Positions 12,035-64,000 of a DNA stretch of 64,000 bases are shown in pieces. Numbering within the stretch: position 1 is the first letter of the stretch; every line of letters starts with the position of its first letter. Both the position numbers and the translations under genes were made by a program. Under the pieces are notes generated by a model. It made no database searches, was not told the origin of the DNA, and saw only the letters and a list, made by a program, of their open reading frames with translations. The stretch is from an uncultured Bacteroidota bacterium (GTDB lineage: Bacteria; Bacteroidota; Bacteroidia; Flavobacteriales; Flavobacteriaceae): contig CACMZR010000003.1 of NCBI GenBank assembly GCA_902618245.1, forward strand, positions 62,001 to 126,000, written 5' to 3'.

Positions 12035-12443
12035 ATGGACAAAAAACGAGTTCTGGAAATTGCAAATAGTATATCTAAAAACACACTAATGGAAACATTA
12101 GAAATATATTATACCGATGTAGGAGATGGTTTTTTAAAGGCAAGAATGCCTGTTTCAAAAAAGGTTCACCAACCGGATGGAATACTACATGGTGGCGCTA
12201 CAGCCGCACTGGCTGAAAGTGTAGGTAGCGCAGCAGTATATTTTTAATAAAGATCCTAATACAAAAGTTCGTGGTATTGAGATCACAGCCAATCATATAA
12301 AGGGTATCTCAGACGGTTTTGTTTATGCTACTGCTAAGCCAATTCATAGTGGTAAAACTATCCAGTACTGGGAAATAAAAGTCGTAAATCAAAAAGATGA
12401 ATTAATATCTTTATGTAAACTAATCACTTTTACGAAGCGATAA
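12035..12443 (+). pseudogene. menI: MenI-like hotdog thioesterase (DHNA-CoA hydrolase type), frameshifted
   Basis: Two frames together encode one complete hotdog thioesterase of the PaaI/YdiI type. The first part (12035-12244) ends with GILHGGATAALAESVGSAAVYF, then TAA at 12245-12247. The second frame resumes at 12246 with NKDPNTKVRGIEITANH and runs to the TAA at 12441-12443. Removing one T from the T5 run at 12241-12245 restores a 135-residue protein. The HGGA..ALAES and EITANHI motifs resemble E. coli YdiI (MenI), which hydrolyses 1,4-dihydroxy-2-naphthoyl-CoA. The location before a MenA-like and a MenE-like gene supports that role. It may be a real pseudogene, a slippage site or a sequencing error in the homopolymer. 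Confidence 0.85.
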
Positions 12444-12498: not shown

Positions 12499-13839
12499 AT
12501 GAAAAGCGTAATTATTTGTGATATGGAAGGAGTAATACAGGAGATGAATAATGGAGCTCTTGAAATGTTTGGTTACTCAAAAGACGAATTAGTTGGTATA
12601 AAAAGAGTTTCAATTTTTTCTCCTGGAGAGATTGTAATTCAAAATGTTTTAGGCTGGCTAGAAGAAGCAAATAAACATGGAAAATCTATTGTTAAAACAA
12701 ATTTCATTAGAAAAGACGGATCATATTTCAATGCTGAAATTATCATAACACCAAATTTTGCTAATGGAAAAGATAAACCTCAAACTGGTTATTGCGGAAT
12801 CACAAAAGAGATTAAAGAAGATGTCAATATTCCAATTAGTTTCACGACAAAAATTATAAAAGGAATTGCAATTACAAGGGGCGGTTTTACATTGGCATCT
12901 ATATTACCTATGGTAATCGTTTCATTGATTTTAAGTCAAACAAATTCATTATCATTGACAAATGCATTTCTGTCTATAATTGGAATAATTTGTGCTCATA
13001 TTTTCGGAAATCTATACAATGACTATTTCGATGTAAAATCGGGAACTGATGAAAATAACAATGAATACTTTAATGTTGGTGATAAATCCATAATATTAAG
13101 AGGTGCACAGATTTCTGGAGGAAGTAGGGCTATAGAATTAGGTTTGATTACACTTAAAAAAACTAAATTTTTAGGAAATCTAATGATCATAATCGCATTA
13201 TCATGCATTATTTTACTTTCGGTAAATATATACTTTCAAACAGGATCATTTGATAACATATATGGTGTTGGCTTAATTGGTTTTTTAGGTTTATTCTTGG
13301 CATACTTTTACACAGCTGAACCATTAAAATTTTCTTCTAGAAAAGGACTAGGTGAATTAACTATATTTTTAACCTTTGGACCACTCCTAACTTTAGGAAG
13401 CTTTTTTGCAATGTCAAATACTTCAATTGAAATTTCATTTCAAGTTTTGCAAAATTTTGTTTTGATTGGCATTCCATTGGGTTTACTTACAACAAATATC
13501 CTTTTAATTAATCAGTTTCCAGATTTAAAGTCAGATAAGAAATCTAATAAAATAAATTTGGTTGTTTTATTTGGAAAAAAATATTCTAGATGGTTATATT
13601 TAGTCAACCTTTTTGTTATCTACATTACAACAATTTATTTTTTTAAAGATTCCTTTCAAACTTTCTACTATCCAAATGTTTTATACTTAATTTTCTTATT
13701 ATTAATTATATACGGTATGTATATTTTTGTAGGTCTGTATAAATTTTATGATTCTAGAAAATTAGTTTTCTATAATATCCATACTATTTATTATCAAATT
13801 ATTTTTTGTCTGGGAATTATTTCAACTTTTTATCTTTAG
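12499..13839 (+). CDS. PAS domain fused to a MenA-like UbiA-family prenyltransferase
   Basis: A 446-residue fusion. Residues 1-105 look like a PAS domain: VIICDMEGVIQEMNNGALEMFGYSKDELVG, a KDGSYFNAEIIITP strand pair and a terminal GYCGITKEI. Residues from about 115 are a polytopic membrane prenyltransferase with the first Asp-rich motif NDYFDVKSGTD (Asn174-Asp184) and a second, NQFPDLKSDKKSNK (around residue 338), the arrangement seen in MenA. MenA attaches a polyprenyl chain to 1,4-dihydroxy-2-naphthoate in the membrane. Neighbours are a MenI-like thioesterase and a MenE-like ligase, which supports a menaquinone role. The N-terminal sensor domain is unusual and suggests redox or ligand control; that is inference. 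Confidence 0.85.
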   Translation: MKSVIICDMEGVIQEMNNGALEMFGYSKDELVGIKRVSIFSPGEIVIQNVLGWLEEANKHGKSIVKTNFIRKDGSYFNAEIIITPNFANGKDKPQTGYCGITKEIKEDVNIPISFTTKIIKGIAITRGGFTLASILPMVIVSLILSQTNSLSLTNAFLSIIGIICAHIFGNLYNDYFDVKSGTDENNNEYFNVGDKSIILRGAQISGGSRAIELGLITLKKTKFLGNLMIIIALSCIILLSVNIYFQTGSFDNIYGVGLIGFLGLFLAYFYTAEPLKFSSRKGLGELTIFLTFGPLLTLGSFFAMSNTSIEISFQVLQNFVLIGIPLGLLTTNILLINQFPDLKSDKKSNKINLVVLFGKKYSRWLYLVNLFVIYITTIYFFKDSFQTFYYPNVLYLIFLLLIIYGMYIFVGLYKFYDSRKLVFYNIHTIYYQIIFCLGIISTFYL

Positions 13840-13850
13840 AAGAATAATTG

Positions 13851-14750
13851 ATGTTTCTAAATGAGGCTGAATCCACAAAAAACCCCTTTTGGATGTACCT
13901 TTTGGGTTCACTCATCATAATATTTTTTTCAATACTTGGTCAACTACCATTGACATTTTTCATTTCAGGGGAAAAGTTATTATCCGCTGGTGGTGATCCA
14001 ATTTTAGCTTTGAGAAATCTGGACAAAAATCTACAACTTTTTTTACTCTTAATTCCTTCATTGGTTGGCTTTTCTGGACTAATTTTAGTTGTATATAAAT
14101 TACATGAAAAATCATTAAAAACTATTTCGACCTCAAGAAATAATTTCGATTGGCAGAGAATGTTTTTTGCTTTTTTTTTATGGAGTCTTATTACAGTTTT
14201 GCTTTTGATTGGGGATTACTTTTTTAATCCAACCGATTATCAATGGAATTTTAAATTATTACCTTTTCTAATTCTTTTTATTATTTCTATTACTTTGATA
14301 CCAATTCAAGCAAGCTTTGAAGAATATATATTTAGAGGCTACCTTTTACATGGCTTTACTTCATTTTTTAAAAAGCCCTGGCTTTCATTAGTTATGACAT
14401 CGATCATTTTTGGATGTTTACATTTTTCTAATCCAGAAGTTGAAAAAATTGGTTATGGTATATTGATATATTATATTGGAACTGGATTTTTTTTAGGAAT
14501 TTTAACAATTATTGACAGGGGTATAGAGTTAGCTTTAGGATTTCATATAGCAAATAACTTATTAATATCTTTATTATTAACCTCATCATGGACAGCATTT
14601 CAGACAGAATCAATTTTTTTAGATATTTCTGAACCCTCAATAGGTTTTGAAGTCATTTTCCCTGTTTTAGTCGTATACCCTTTATTCTTATTTATTGTGT
14701 CAAAAAAATACAAATTGTCAGATTGGAAAAATAGATTATTAAATACTTAG
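13851..14750 (+). CDS. CPBP-family intramembrane glutamic endopeptidase
   Basis: Polytopic membrane protein of about 299 residues with the ABI/CPBP protease motifs: FEEYIFRGYL (EExxxR), FGCLHF and the later FHIANNLL, each in a hydrophobic segment. The family contains Rce1-like prenyl-protein proteases and proteins of unknown substrate in bacteria. The ATG at 13851 is chosen over the TTG immediately before it. It follows the PAS-prenyltransferase by 11 bases and precedes the MenE-like gene by 4 bases, so it belongs to the same transcript. Its substrate is unknown. Confidence 0.9.
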   Translation: MFLNEAESTKNPFWMYLLGSLIIIFFSILGQLPLTFFISGEKLLSAGGDPILALRNLDKNLQLFLLLIPSLVGFSGLILVVYKLHEKSLKTISTSRNNFDWQRMFFAFFLWSLITVLLLIGDYFFNPTDYQWNFKLLPFLILFIISITLIPIQASFEEYIFRGYLLHGFTSFFKKPWLSLVMTSIIFGCLHFSNPEVEKIGYGILIYYIGTGFFLGILTIIDRGIELALGFHIANNLLISLLLTSSWTAFQTESIFLDISEPSIGFEVIFPVLVVYPLFLFIVSKKYKLSDWKNRLLNT

Positions 14751-14754
14751 CTTA

Positions 14755-15840
14755 ATGGAAATACCTAAATTTTCAAAAATTCACAATCGTTTTCGCCTCA
14801 ATGGTTATTTTTATGATAGAAATACTCTGAAAGAAGTAGCCTATAATTTCATAAAGGAAGGAGATCTTTATGAAACCTTTTTGGGAGACTTTATTTTAGA
14901 TTGGCTCGATAACTCAGATTCAATTTATCTTAGCACATCAATATCAAAGAAAAATAAGATATTGGTTAAAAAACAGTCGCTTGTTAGCAGCGCAATTTCA
15001 ACTGGAGATTTTTTAAAGGTAAGTGTTGGGGATAGAGCTCTTCATTGTTTACCTACAAACTATATAGCAGGTAAAATGATGTTAATAAGAGCATTAATTT
15101 TAGGTCTTGAAATTGATCTGATTTCTCCATCCAAAAAACCCTTCTATAAAAACAAAAAATTTTACGATTTTGCAGCGATGACCCCGATTCAGGCATTTCA
15201 CTCTATAGCTGATTTAGGTAGAATAAAAAAGTTGATAATTGGAGGTGCTTATCTATCTAACGCACTCCAGCAGGCTTTGATAAAGGCTAAAATAAATGCC
15301 TATGAAACATATGGAATGATGGAGACACTTTCACATATTGCCGTACGTAAGATGACTGATCCTATATCTGAATTCAAGTGTTTGCCAGGAATTTTTGTAG
15401 GACAAGATAATCGCAAATGTTTAACTATTGATGCACCTAGATTAGATATCAAAAATCTTATTACTAATGATCAGGTAGAATTATATGGTCCAACTAAATT
15501 TAGATTGATTGGGAGTATTGATCACATAATTAAACTGGATGGTTTTAATATACACCCTGAGCAAGTTGAACGAAAGTTATCTGAAAAAATATCCTTTCAT
15601 TTTTTTATTGATAAAATAGCCTTAAAATCAAAAAAAGAAAAATTAACTATAGTTATTGAATATAATTCTAAGATCGATTTTAAGAAACTTAAAGATCAGA
15701 TTAAGAGTTGTAAAAAGCTTGAGAAATATGAAATTCCTAAATACATTACCCTACATGAAAAATTCATACAAACATACAGTGGTAAGATAAAGCGAAAGGA
15801 AACAATGAATCAGGAGCCATTTAATGTATTAGACTTGTAA
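14755..15840 (+). CDS. menE: MenE-like AMP-binding ligase with eroded motifs
   Basis: A 361-residue member of the short Bacteroidota MenE (o-succinylbenzoate-CoA ligase) group, which activates o-succinylbenzoate in menaquinone synthesis. Order and overall pattern match: CLPTNYIAGKMMLIRAL, IIGGAYLS, YETYGMMETLSHIAVRK, a hinge region and the C-terminal SGKIKRKE with the likely catalytic Lys344. However, the phosphate-binding loop is not recognisable: at residues 60-70 the sequence is STSISKKNKIL where TSGSTGKPK is expected. The A5 motif reads YGMME instead of YGMTE, and the GRxD hinge motif reads GSID. Function may be altered or lost. Its last 12 bases overlap the convergent carboxylase gene. 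Confidence 0.75.
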   Translation: MEIPKFSKIHNRFRLNGYFYDRNTLKEVAYNFIKEGDLYETFLGDFILDWLDNSDSIYLSTSISKKNKILVKKQSLVSSAISTGDFLKVSVGDRALHCLPTNYIAGKMMLIRALILGLEIDLISPSKKPFYKNKKFYDFAAMTPIQAFHSIADLGRIKKLIIGGAYLSNALQQALIKAKINAYETYGMMETLSHIAVRKMTDPISEFKCLPGIFVGQDNRKCLTIDAPRLDIKNLITNDQVELYGPTKFRLIGSIDHIIKLDGFNIHPEQVERKLSEKISFHFFIDKIALKSKKEKLTIVIEYNSKIDFKKLKDQIKSCKKLEKYEIPKYITLHEKFIQTYSGKIKRKETMNQEPFNVLDL

Positions 15841-61899: not shown

Positions 61900-61930
61900 T
61901 TTGAAGTTCGAACCATTACTGTTATATTTG
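61900..61930 (+). promoter_or_regulatory. Near-consensus promoter of rpsA
   Basis: TTTG (61900-61903), a 19-base spacer and TATATTTG (61923-61930) match the Bacteroidota consensus TTTG-N19/20-TAnnTTTG without mismatch. Transcription would start near 61937, giving an rpsA leader of about 100 bases. Confidence 0.75.
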
Positions 61931-61936
61931 CACGCT

Positions 61937-62036
61937 TTTAATTAGTTCGGAACACCGAAAGCAGTTAAAATTTTTAAAACCTCTTCTACCTTGGTAATTT
62001 AAGGTTTCCCCAACGGTAGGATACAAAAAAATAGAA
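61937..62036 (+). promoter_or_regulatory. Structured 5' leader of rpsA
   Basis: Two helices are visible: a perfect hairpin TTCGG-AACA-CCGAA (61946-61959), and a longer one in which CTACCTTGG (61986-61994) pairs with CCAA-C-GGTAG (62010-62019) with one bulged C. A shorter alternative helix CCTT/AAGG (61989-62004) would compete with the second. The helix ends 17 bases before the ATG. S1 autoregulation through its leader is known in E. coli; here a similar role is inference. Confidence 0.5.
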
Positions 62037-64000
62037 ATGGCTAAGAAATCCATTGAAGACAAGGCTGTTAAAAAGACAACAGCAAAGTCAGCTACAGAGA
62101 AAAAAGCAACTACTAAAGCGATATCTGTTGAGAAAACAACAGCAAAATCAACTACAGCGAAAAAAACAACTACTAAAGCAGCATCTGCTAATAAGACAAC
62201 ATCAAAGTCAAGTTCAGCGAAAAAAACAACTACTAAAGCAGCATCTGCTAAGAAGACAACATCAAAGTCAAGTGCTGCGAAAAAAACAACTACTAAAGTA
62301 ACATCTGCTAAGAAGACAACAGCTAAGTAAACTGCTGCGAAAAAAACAACTACTAAAGCAGCATCTGCTAAGAAGACAACGTCAAGGTCAACTACAGCGA
62401 AAAAAACAACTACTAAAGCTGCTTCTGCTACAAAGACAACAGTTGAATTATCAAACTCGAAAACGAATACTGAGACTGAATTAACCAAAAATGTAGACAG
62501 TGAAAAATCTTCAATATCTAGGACAGAAAAAAAATCCGAGTTTTTGGATAACTTTAATTGGAAAAGTTATGCAGAAGGTATCGAGGTTATTGACAATAAA
62601 AAACTTGAGGAGTTTGAGAAATTAGTCAAAGATAATTTTGTTGATACATCAGATGAGGATGTTATAGAAGGTACAGTAGTTTATATGACTGACAGGGAGG
62701 CAATTATAGATATTAATGCTAAATCTGAGGGAGTAATATCTCTTAATGAATTTAGATATAATCCTGAATTAAAGGTTGGAGACAAAGTAGAGGTTATTGT
62801 CGACACACGTGAAGACAGAACAGGTCAATTGGTTCTTTCTCATAGGAAGGCCAGAGTAATAAAAGCTTGGGATAGAGTGAATAATGCCCATGATAATTCT
62901 GAAATTGTTAGTGGATTTGTAAAATGTAGGACCAAAGGGGGAATGATTGTTGATGTATTTGGCATTGAAGCTTTTTTACCTGGTTCACAAATTGACGTCA
63001 AACCTATCAGAGATTATGATCAATATGTGAATAAAACAATGGAATTTAAAGTGGTAAAAATTAATCACGAATTCAAAAACGTCGTAGTTTCTCATAAAGC
63101 GCTAATTGAAGCTGATATTGAAGAACAAAAGAAAGAAATTATAGGTCAATTAGAAAAAGGCCAAGTACTCGAGGGAATAGTTAAAAATATAACATCATAC
63201 GGAGTATTTATTGATCTTGGTGGCGTTGACGGATTAATCCATATAACAGATCTTTCGTGGAGCAGAATAAATCACCCAAGTGAAATTTTAGAGCTGGATC
63301 AAAAATTAAATGTAGTAATACTTGATTTTGATGATAATAAATCTCGCATACAATTAGGACTCAAACAATTAAGTGATCACCCATGGGATAAACTTTCAAA
63401 AGATCTAAAAGAGGGAGATAAAGTTAAAGGGAAAGTTGTAATTATTGCAGATTACGGTGCTTTCATCGAAATAGAGGAAGGAGTTGAAGGACTTGTGCAT
63501 GTTTCCGAAATGTCCTGGTCTACTCATTTGCGCTCTGCACAAGATTTTGTTAAAGTGGGAGATGAAGTCGACGCTGTTATTTTATCACTTGATAGGGAAT
63601 CAAGAAAAATGTCTCTTGGAATAAAGCAGATTTCACCAGATCCATGGACAGACATCACATCAAAATATCCACTAGGATCAAAACATACAGGATTAGTAAG
63701 AAACTTTACGAATTTTGGAGTTTTCATTGAACTTGAAGAAGGAATTGACGGGTTGGTATATATTTCAGATTTATCTTGGACTAAAAAAGTAAAACATCCA
63801 TCAGAAGTTTTAACACTGGGAGAAAAAATTGATGTTATTGTTCTTGAATTAGATGTAGACGGGCGTAAACTTAGTTTAGGTCACAAACATACTAAAGAAA
63901 ATCCATGGGATAAGTATGAGAAAGATTTTGCCTTAAACACTACACATGAAGGTGAGATTTTTGAAGTTTTAGACAAAGGAGCTACTATCCAATTTAACGA
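62037..64000 (+). CDS. rpsA: 30S ribosomal protein S1, 3' part outside the window, with in-frame TAA
   Basis: S1 unwinds mRNA and recruits it to the 30S subunit. The frame starts at the ATG at 62037 with a Lys/Thr/Ala/Ser-rich extension made of 20-residue repeats. At 62328-62330 a TAA interrupts it; the equivalent codon in neighbouring repeats is TCA (Ser). Behind it the same frame continues with the repeats, a short acidic linker (FLDNFNWKSYAEG), then S1 motifs: VIEGTVVYMTDREAII, IVSGFVKCRTKGGMIV, VLEGIVKNITSYGVFIDL, KVKGKVVIIADYGAFIEI and KHTGLVRNFTNFGVFIEL; a sixth begins at the window edge. The only initiator-like codon after the TAA and before the S1 domains is TTG at 62544. Whether the stop is real, read through or an error is open. 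Confidence 0.85.
62097..62456 (+). repeat. Six 60-base tandem repeats in the rpsA N-terminal extension
   Basis: Units begin with GCG/GAG AAA AAA at 62097, 62157, 62217, 62277, 62337 and 62397. Each encodes about 20 residues of the type AKKTTTKAASAKKTTSKS. Units 2-5 differ at only a few positions; the first and last are more diverged. The preceding 60 bases contain a weaker copy. Unit 4 carries the TAA. The period is a multiple of three, so unit gain or loss would keep the frame. Confidence 0.9.

Follow-up and report, generated by a model that had tools for sequence, protein, structure and literature searches.

Within the window, by which we mean the whole 64,000-nucleotide stretch of DNA analysed here, a gene encoding a PAS domain fused to a UbiA prenyltransferase domain lies between a menI-type thioesterase gene and genes for a CPBP/Rce1-like membrane protease and a MenE-like acyl-CoA ligase (Table 1). 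The ORF (12499-13839) starts with ATG, has no internal stops and occupies exactly the coordinates given in the initial annotation. At the far end of the window, a long reverse-strand frame (61922-62488) has a low-complexity, repeat-like translation and is perhaps the antisense of repetitive sequence.

Table 1. Features of the fusion gene and its neighbours, in window coordinates
Feature	Position	Strand	Basis or remark
menI-type hotdog thioesterase gene	12035..12443	+	frameshift in this assembly; close relatives carry an unbroken copy
PAS-UbiA fusion protein	12499..13839	+	446 aa; domain profiles and homologous fusions
PAS domain, aa 1-108 (PAS_9 match aa 3-92)	12499..12822	+	Pfam, structure, dN/dS ~0.05
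Cys7, PAS strand 1	12517..12519	+	45/45 aligned fusions, partly by construction
Cys99, last PAS strand	12793..12795	+	44/45 aligned fusions (L074 has Ile)
Linker aa 109-130, runs into first membrane helix	12823..12888	+	strongly constrained, dN/dS ~0.03
UbiA prenyltransferase domain, aa 136-414	12904..13740	+	Pfam profile, tree
First Asp-rich motif, N174 D175 ... D178 ... G182 T183 D184	13018..13050	+	
Second Asp-rich motif, D342 ... D346	13522..13536	+	
CPBP/Rce1-like membrane protease gene	13848..14750	+	constant neighbour at the locus in the genus
MenE-like acyl-CoA ligase gene	14755..15840	+	purifying selection, ATP-binding motif missing
Place of lost MenE P-loop (canonical sisters: TSGTTA-PK/R)	14935..14958	+	

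The PAS and UbiA domains of the fusion

The architecture first noted from the letters, a PAS domain joined to a UbiA-family enzyme with intact Asp-rich motifs, was recovered in full by profile searches, with PF13426 (PAS_9) matching aa 3-92 (E = 1.4e-9; 38.6 bits against a cut-off of 27) and PF01040 (UbiA) matching aa 136-414 (E = 2.3e-24; 86.5 bits against a cut-off of 34.2); the gathering scores of both profiles were also exceeded in all ten further fusions tested. The motifs read NDYFD...GTD (aa 174-184) and PDLKSD (aa 341-346), and N174, D175, D178, D184, D342 and D346 are invariant in the alignment of 45 full-length fusions, so that the PF01040 score and both motifs place the protein in the UbiA superfamily. 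An assembly artefact as the source of the fusion was ruled out, because the same one-frame fusion recurs in many other assemblies and in five other families.

Among the NCBIfam models, those of MenA (NF004751 and TIGR00751) score best with the fusions, in line with the MenA type assigned initially, but the scores stay far below the cut-offs: the window protein reaches at best 80.0 of 264 bits, and 61.6 of 102.15 bits with TIGR00751, and the MenA cut-offs were reached by none of the ten fusions scored (the window protein and nine others), unlike the free-standing proteins of L180 and L233, which pass both models. A tree was built from 20 fusion UbiA domains, 10 MenA, 6 MqnP, 14 CyoE and 13 other proteins. 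In it, the fusions group in a single clade of their own (99/99), which lies towards MenA and away from MqnP and CyoE; between the fusions and MenA come three further UbiA proteins, encoded in genomes of family f29, whose placement is weakly supported (85/75). This separate clade and the profile scores ruled out an MqnP identity, the L092 fusion reaching 29.3 of 420 bits with the MqnP model and the window protein's matches including no MqnP model.

Structure prediction is in keeping with the PAS fold initially proposed for the N-terminus. Secondary structure predicted for aa 1-112 follows the PAS topology, and the AlphaFold model of the full-length protein (13 aligned relatives; mean pLDDT 59.9, pTM 0.59, that is, a moderate model) shows the PAS topology first and then the helices that a UbiA protein should have. 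The PAS-only model, of moderate confidence (mean pLDDT 66.4), could be superposed on experimentally determined PAS structures (best Z 10.9, over 106 residues with rmsd 3.3), including NifL (2gj3; Z 9.7) and Aer (8dik; Z 9.5), with pocket details unreliable because the alignments behind the models are shallow. Foldseek searches with the full-length model returned UBIAD1 in the first row, archaeal UbiA proteins and many PAS domains, and UBIAD1 (PDB 8djk) is also the best solved UbiA relative by sequence (5.5e-8). A match to 7rdr was set aside: this is a repeat protein, and no single stretch was significant alone.

Conservation was assessed on 45 of the 51 distinct fusion sequences, the six shorter than 380 aa being left out. 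The commonest residue has a mean frequency of 0.75 over aa 1-108 and of 0.63 over aa 131-446. Across the genus and close relatives, dN/dS comes to ~0.05 in the PAS domain, ~0.03 in the linker and ~0.12 in UbiA, values obtained with nearly saturated synonymous sites; the PAS domain and linker are more strongly constrained than the enzyme. The presence of Cys7 in all 45 aligned fusions is partly a matter of construction, because the motif used to find them contained this residue. That motif caught 63 of the 68 loci, and the only full-length fusion among the five missed (L084), checked separately, has both Cys7 and Cys99. No His reaches a frequency of at least 60% within aa 1-108 of the 45 aligned fusions, and a FixL-type heme PAS was ruled out on this set, which has no conserved His ligand.

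The men locus and ring-forming genes in fusion genomes

The men locus reads menF-menD-menB-menA-menC-CPBP-menE in six canonical congeners, with menI upstream where the stretch reaches, and dnaK-menI-fusion-CPBP-menE in the fusion genomes of the genus. Comparison of the two orders shows that the five genes from menF to menC were replaced in place by the fusion; both arrangements retain the CPBP/Rce1-like protease gene. The names menF, menB, menC, menI and mqnB rest on reading of the sequences and on gene order rather than on profiles, although the copy of menI in a relative (L035) matches Pfam 4HBT. The gene does sit within a menaquinone cluster, as first described, but this cluster is a remnant and not a working set: menF, menB and menC, whose presence was judged at the locus only, are gone from the window's men locus, and the MenE P-loop is lost. 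The remnant is smaller still in L044, which has no menE, and in L038, which has neither menI nor menE, and no MenE-like ORF of at least 100 aa was found in either stretch.

The ATP-binding motif of MenE (TSGTTA-PK/R) is present in all six canonical sequences and lost in nine of the ten fusion genomes examined (the exception being L012), and the same nine carry YGMME in place of YGMTE. Among the fusion genomes of the genus, the median dN/dS of MenE is 0.098 (26 pairs) as against 0.125 in the canonical ones (8 pairs), ratios that are rough because synonymous sites are near saturation. Purifying selection within the genus ruled out a dead relic; a MenE that remains under such selection despite the lost P-loop may therefore be a retained pseudo-enzyme, possibly with a new role.

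MenD exceeded its cut-off in none of the 42 fusion genomes searched, many of them incomplete, comprising 11 of the genus and 31 from outside it (18 of the 27 order-sample and 10 of the 11 phylum-sample fusion genomes other than the window's own, and three genomes of named loci); this outside set also served for the UbiA, PF02621 and MenG searches. By comparison, 23 of the 27 non-fusion congeners have MenD (21 over the cut-off and 2 in pieces), a within-genus contrast with a Fisher P-value of ~1e-6 that ignores kinship. Canonical MenA, defined by score and locus, follows the same pattern within the genus: 21 of the 27 non-fusion genomes have it, as against none of the 11 that carry the fusion, and all 21 are among the 23 genomes with MenD. 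Outside the genus, MenD was over the cut-off in 0/31 fusion and 5/9 non-fusion genomes, and the pooled Fisher value is ~2e-14, again ignoring kinship. Because the non-fusion genomes without MenD in this comparison (G043, G046, G050 and G058) all have PF02621 pairs, the contrast within the genus is the clean one, and the overall correlation partly reflects lineage. In the window genome (85.8% complete) MenD was not found, the one match (a 582-aa frame with 52.8 bits against 244.2) looking like acetolactate synthase. Overall, weak matches (~45-57 of 244.2 bits, in frames of ~570-580 aa) occur in ten of the genus's 11 fusion genomes; such frames are also seen in MenD-bearing genomes, and we take the matches for acetolactate synthase.

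As to the futalosine pathway, PF02621 (MqnA/MqnD) was found in none of the 38 genomes of the genus; the same was true of all six f6 genomes, all three genomes of genus g63 in family f11, G130, G143, G286 and the genomes behind the three named loci (L038, L039 and L044). Two PF02621 proteins over the cut-off are present in 5 of the 31 fusion genomes outside the genus (G082, G107, G159, G183 and G198) and one in G216; the pairs in f11 and f15 genomes were taken as MqnA and MqnD, and the MqnA loci there carry an adjacent gene that reads as mqnB-like. Because the f29 fusion genomes have one PF02621 match each (100 and 70 bits), and those of f39 weak matches (two just over the cut-off and two below it) or none, a divergent futalosine pathway is possible in these two families.

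MenG/UbiE was over the cut-off in 34 of the 42 fusion genomes (9/11 in the genus and 25/31 elsewhere), with no match in the other 2/11 and 6/31, among them G098 and G103 (95% complete). In the window genome, COX3, COX4 and SCO1 genes lie beside cyoE, which suggests that the organism has a respiratory need.

Other UbiA proteins and distribution of the fusion

A search of the window genome with PF01040 for other PRENYLTRANSFERASES returned only CyoE (heme O synthase; TIGR01473, 252.4 bits against a cut-off of 210.3) and the fusion. A second MenA, which together with a different substrate for the fusion would have refuted the initial annotation, was looked for there and none was found, CyoE being the sole other UbiA protein. 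Within the genus, two of the 11 fusion carriers (G027 and G035) encode a third UbiA protein of ~300 aa, and G016 has a weak extra match. G484, a single contig rated 100% complete, has CyoE (226.3 bits), the fusion and two further members, one resembling decaprenyl-phosphate phosphoribosyltransferase (NF006088, 360.8 bits against a cut-off of 351) and one matched by no NCBIfam model. None of its UbiA proteins scores as MenA or MqnP, and this genome has MenG and heme O synthase, with MenD and PF02621 not found.

Elsewhere, the fusion coexists with established types. MqnP-type enzymes were seen in five of the six f11/f15 fusion genomes with PF02621 (G082, G107, G183, G198 and G216, none in G159), these members being UbiA-like or MqnP-like by score and below the MqnP cut-offs. 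In family f39, a free-standing MenA passes the cut-off of 264 bits in G455 (316.8) and G509 (280.6), and a gene that reads as similar lies beside MenG in G525 and G764. Members were assigned to MqnP or CyoE by profile score where one was obtained, as for L175, and otherwise from the tree and from reading of the sequences. In the f11, f15 and f39 genomes with an MqnP-type enzyme or MenA, the fusion is therefore an addition; overall, some genomes have no candidate besides it, whereas in others it comes on top of a known type. In G455 (L180:2589-5640), MenA and MenG adjoin a flavin amine-oxidase-like gene and MenD was not found, another hint of an unexplained source of the ring.

Searches among relatives and in samples of the order and the phylum found the fusion in the genus and five further families. 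It was present in 13 of 60 relatives (one truncated), 11 of them in the genus, the window's own genome included, and two in family f6. Matches numbered 28 of 395 genomes in the order sample (own included, some partial; families f6, f11 and f15) and 12 of 395 in the phylum sample (own included; families f39 and f29). The window's own genome is the only match from its family, f1, among the 395 genomes of the order sample, for which the count of f1 genomes is not given. The fusion thus spans six Bacteroidota families, the window's own and five others, and the family of fusions is old. The earlier surmise of a lineage-wide architecture holds in that many relatives share it, but it is not general in flavobacteria, being found in 11 of the 38 genomes of the genus. 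Where records are named, they belong to uncultured Bacteroidetes sequenced from single cells or metagenomes, several bearing marine names, and no match was found in the plasmid records searched. The fusion genomes of f39 and f29 measure 2.2-3.3 Mb.

The surroundings of the gene vary outside the genus. In f6, it lies beside a gene, read away from it, for a large protein with a CTECH stretch and a Kunitz domain (L106:4686-7013 and L109:7837-10170); in some f39 loci, genes that read as homogentisate-dioxygenase-like lie a few kb away; and in one f11 locus a pterin dehydratase adjoins it. The fusion genes of G107 and G130 are broken by stops (L118:6274-7625 and L115:4969-6261), and G107 keeps futalosine-type genes.

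Possible roles and relation to known systems

The fusion is a PAS-fused prenyltransferase standing in place of the core of the men operon, in cells in which no recognised ring synthesis was found. On balance, we lean towards its being a PAS-gated, MenA-like membrane enzyme that adds the isoprenoid tail to the ring of a respiratory quinone without ring synthesis by the Men or futalosine pathway. The fusion would have taken over from MenA in the window's lineage and apparently from MqnP in others, the host cells would no longer make the ring by either pathway and would take it up ready-made or produce it by an undescribed route, the N-terminal PAS domain would gate the prenyltransferase, and MenG would then methylate the prenylated product. 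We infer that the substrate is a quinone ring and the reaction its prenylation, that the fusion made the gene losses possible and that the PAS senses something; that a distant enzyme took the place of MenA further suggests a ring, or a form of it, other than DHNA.

The source of the ring separates two versions of this scheme. Uptake of a ready-made naphthoquinone ring or of short-chain menaquinone, re-tailed by the fusion, with the PAS matching activity to ring supply, is a possible source, though not a probable one; it would fit the retention of MenG in most genomes that lost MenD, as well as the likeness to UBIAD1, the best solved relative by sequence and the top Foldseek match. There is precedent in Streptococcus agalactiae, which according to the excerpted text of PMC6030563 keeps menA without other men genes and forms DMK-10 from outside DHNA or short-chain quinones, and in Porphyromonas gingivalis, which in the excerpts of PMC12502741 grows on naphthoquinones from others, about one third of its genomes having no complete menaquinone pathway. 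Salvage alone, however, leaves unexplained why native MenA gave way to a distantly related enzyme, given that the known salvager manages with MenA, and the f39 and f29 fusion genomes, at their size, are not obviously those of dependent cells. A de novo route of a new kind, in which the fusion would be the prenyltransferase of a third menaquinone pathway or act on another head group, we hold to be unlikely. G484 speaks for it, being rated complete and having MenG and CyoE but no MenD, no PF02621 match and no UbiA protein that scores as MenA or MqnP; moreover, the pathway lost differs between lineages, being Men in the genus and probably futalosine in g63 and G130, which have f11/f15 relatives that retain the latter, and according to the excerpted part of a recent survey many lineages encode none of the quinone pathways known so far (PMC13386864). 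No further candidate gene was found, and the neighbours of the fusion differ between families, which speaks against such a route. If it did exist, the PAS-UbiA fusion would mark an undescribed quinone route of Bacteroidota, leading to menaquinone by a third pathway or to a respiratory quinone of a new kind, with the tailing step switched by the built-in PAS as redox sensor, which we regard as unlikely; it is just as doubtful that, under that reading, the fusion displaced Men in a marine flavobacterial genus and futalosine in other lineages.

Two readings place the enzyme outside this scheme. Direct control of ordinary menaquinone synthesis, as initially proposed, by a plain MenA under PAS control with the other genes missed, draws on the best-scoring NCBIfam models and the position at the men locus, but we consider it very improbable: MenD is over the cut-off in none of the 42 fusion genomes, menF, menB and menC are gone from the locus, the MenE motif is lost in nine of ten genomes, with no MenE-like ORF of at least 100 aa in L038 and L044, and all ten fusions scored fall below the MenA cut-offs. 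Rather unlikely, too, is a prenylated product other than a respiratory quinone, complete quinones being obtained by other means. Acceptors vary among UbiA members, and the occurrence of the fusion alongside MenA or an MqnP-type enzyme in some genomes of f11, f15 and f39 would suit a separate product; against it, the fusion in the genus occupies the place of menA and the ring-forming genes, and in several genomes it is the only candidate quinone prenyltransferase found. The part played by the PAS is independent of these readings. Because two nearly invariant cysteines lie on its first and last strands and no His is conserved, we think it most likely that the PAS senses a redox or ligand state tied to the quinone pool; control by a ligand, oxygen or redox state is plausible, judging from the conservation and from the quinone-linked cysteines of the ArcB and EvgS PAS domains. 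A PAS fold alone is no proof of sensing, and the domain might be a purely structural module for dimerisation or folding, but this seems doubtful, as many residues including both cysteines are nearly invariant and the PAS evolves more slowly than the enzyme, which is evidence of constraint and not proof of sensing.

As initially supposed, the architecture appears to be uncharacterised: among the papers listed for PAS, UbiA, prenyltransferase or menaquinone, none describes such a fusion, and a literature search for menaquinone auxotrophy in marine single-cell genomes found none. In its excerpted text, a 2026 survey of quinones across 26,264 bacterial genomes notes many lineages without any known quinone pathway, the production of menaquinone or phylloquinone by Gloeobacter without a recognised pathway, and the possibility that other quinones await discovery (PMC13386864). 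PAS-UbiA offers a specific, testable handle on such lineages within Bacteroidota, and as one genus contains both the fusion and the Men state, the change can be dissected by comparison. The enzyme itself is a variant of known prenyltransferases; the route that it serves may be new.

With MenA, the fusion shares the UbiA fold, the Asp-rich motifs, the best-scoring family and the side of the tree; it differs in its N-terminal PAS, its scores below the MenA cut-offs, its own clade and the missing ring-forming men genes, the DHNA-forming Men pathway expected in the same cell having left no MenD over the cut-off in any of the 42 fusion genomes, many of them incomplete. MqnP, which has a quinone role as the prenyltransferase of the futalosine pathway, also belongs to the UbiA superfamily but to a distant clade, coexisting with the fusion in some genomes; PF02621 is absent from all 38 genomes of the genus and paired in only 5 of the 31 fusion genomes elsewhere. 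UBIAD1, the closest solved UbiA relative, prenylates menadione and has no PAS. On the sensory side, NifL and Aer, whose PAS domains bind FAD, share the PAS fold with the fusion, a likeness of fold only. A functional parallel may be the cytoplasmic PAS redox switches of ArcB and EvgS, in which, according to the excerpted text of PMC8174306, functional cysteines are tied to quinones; these act on histidine kinases, whereas the PAS of the fusion would act on a biosynthetic enzyme, and the cysteine positions may not be equivalent. A sensor fused to the quinone-tailing enzyme itself would amount to direct control over the respiratory pool.
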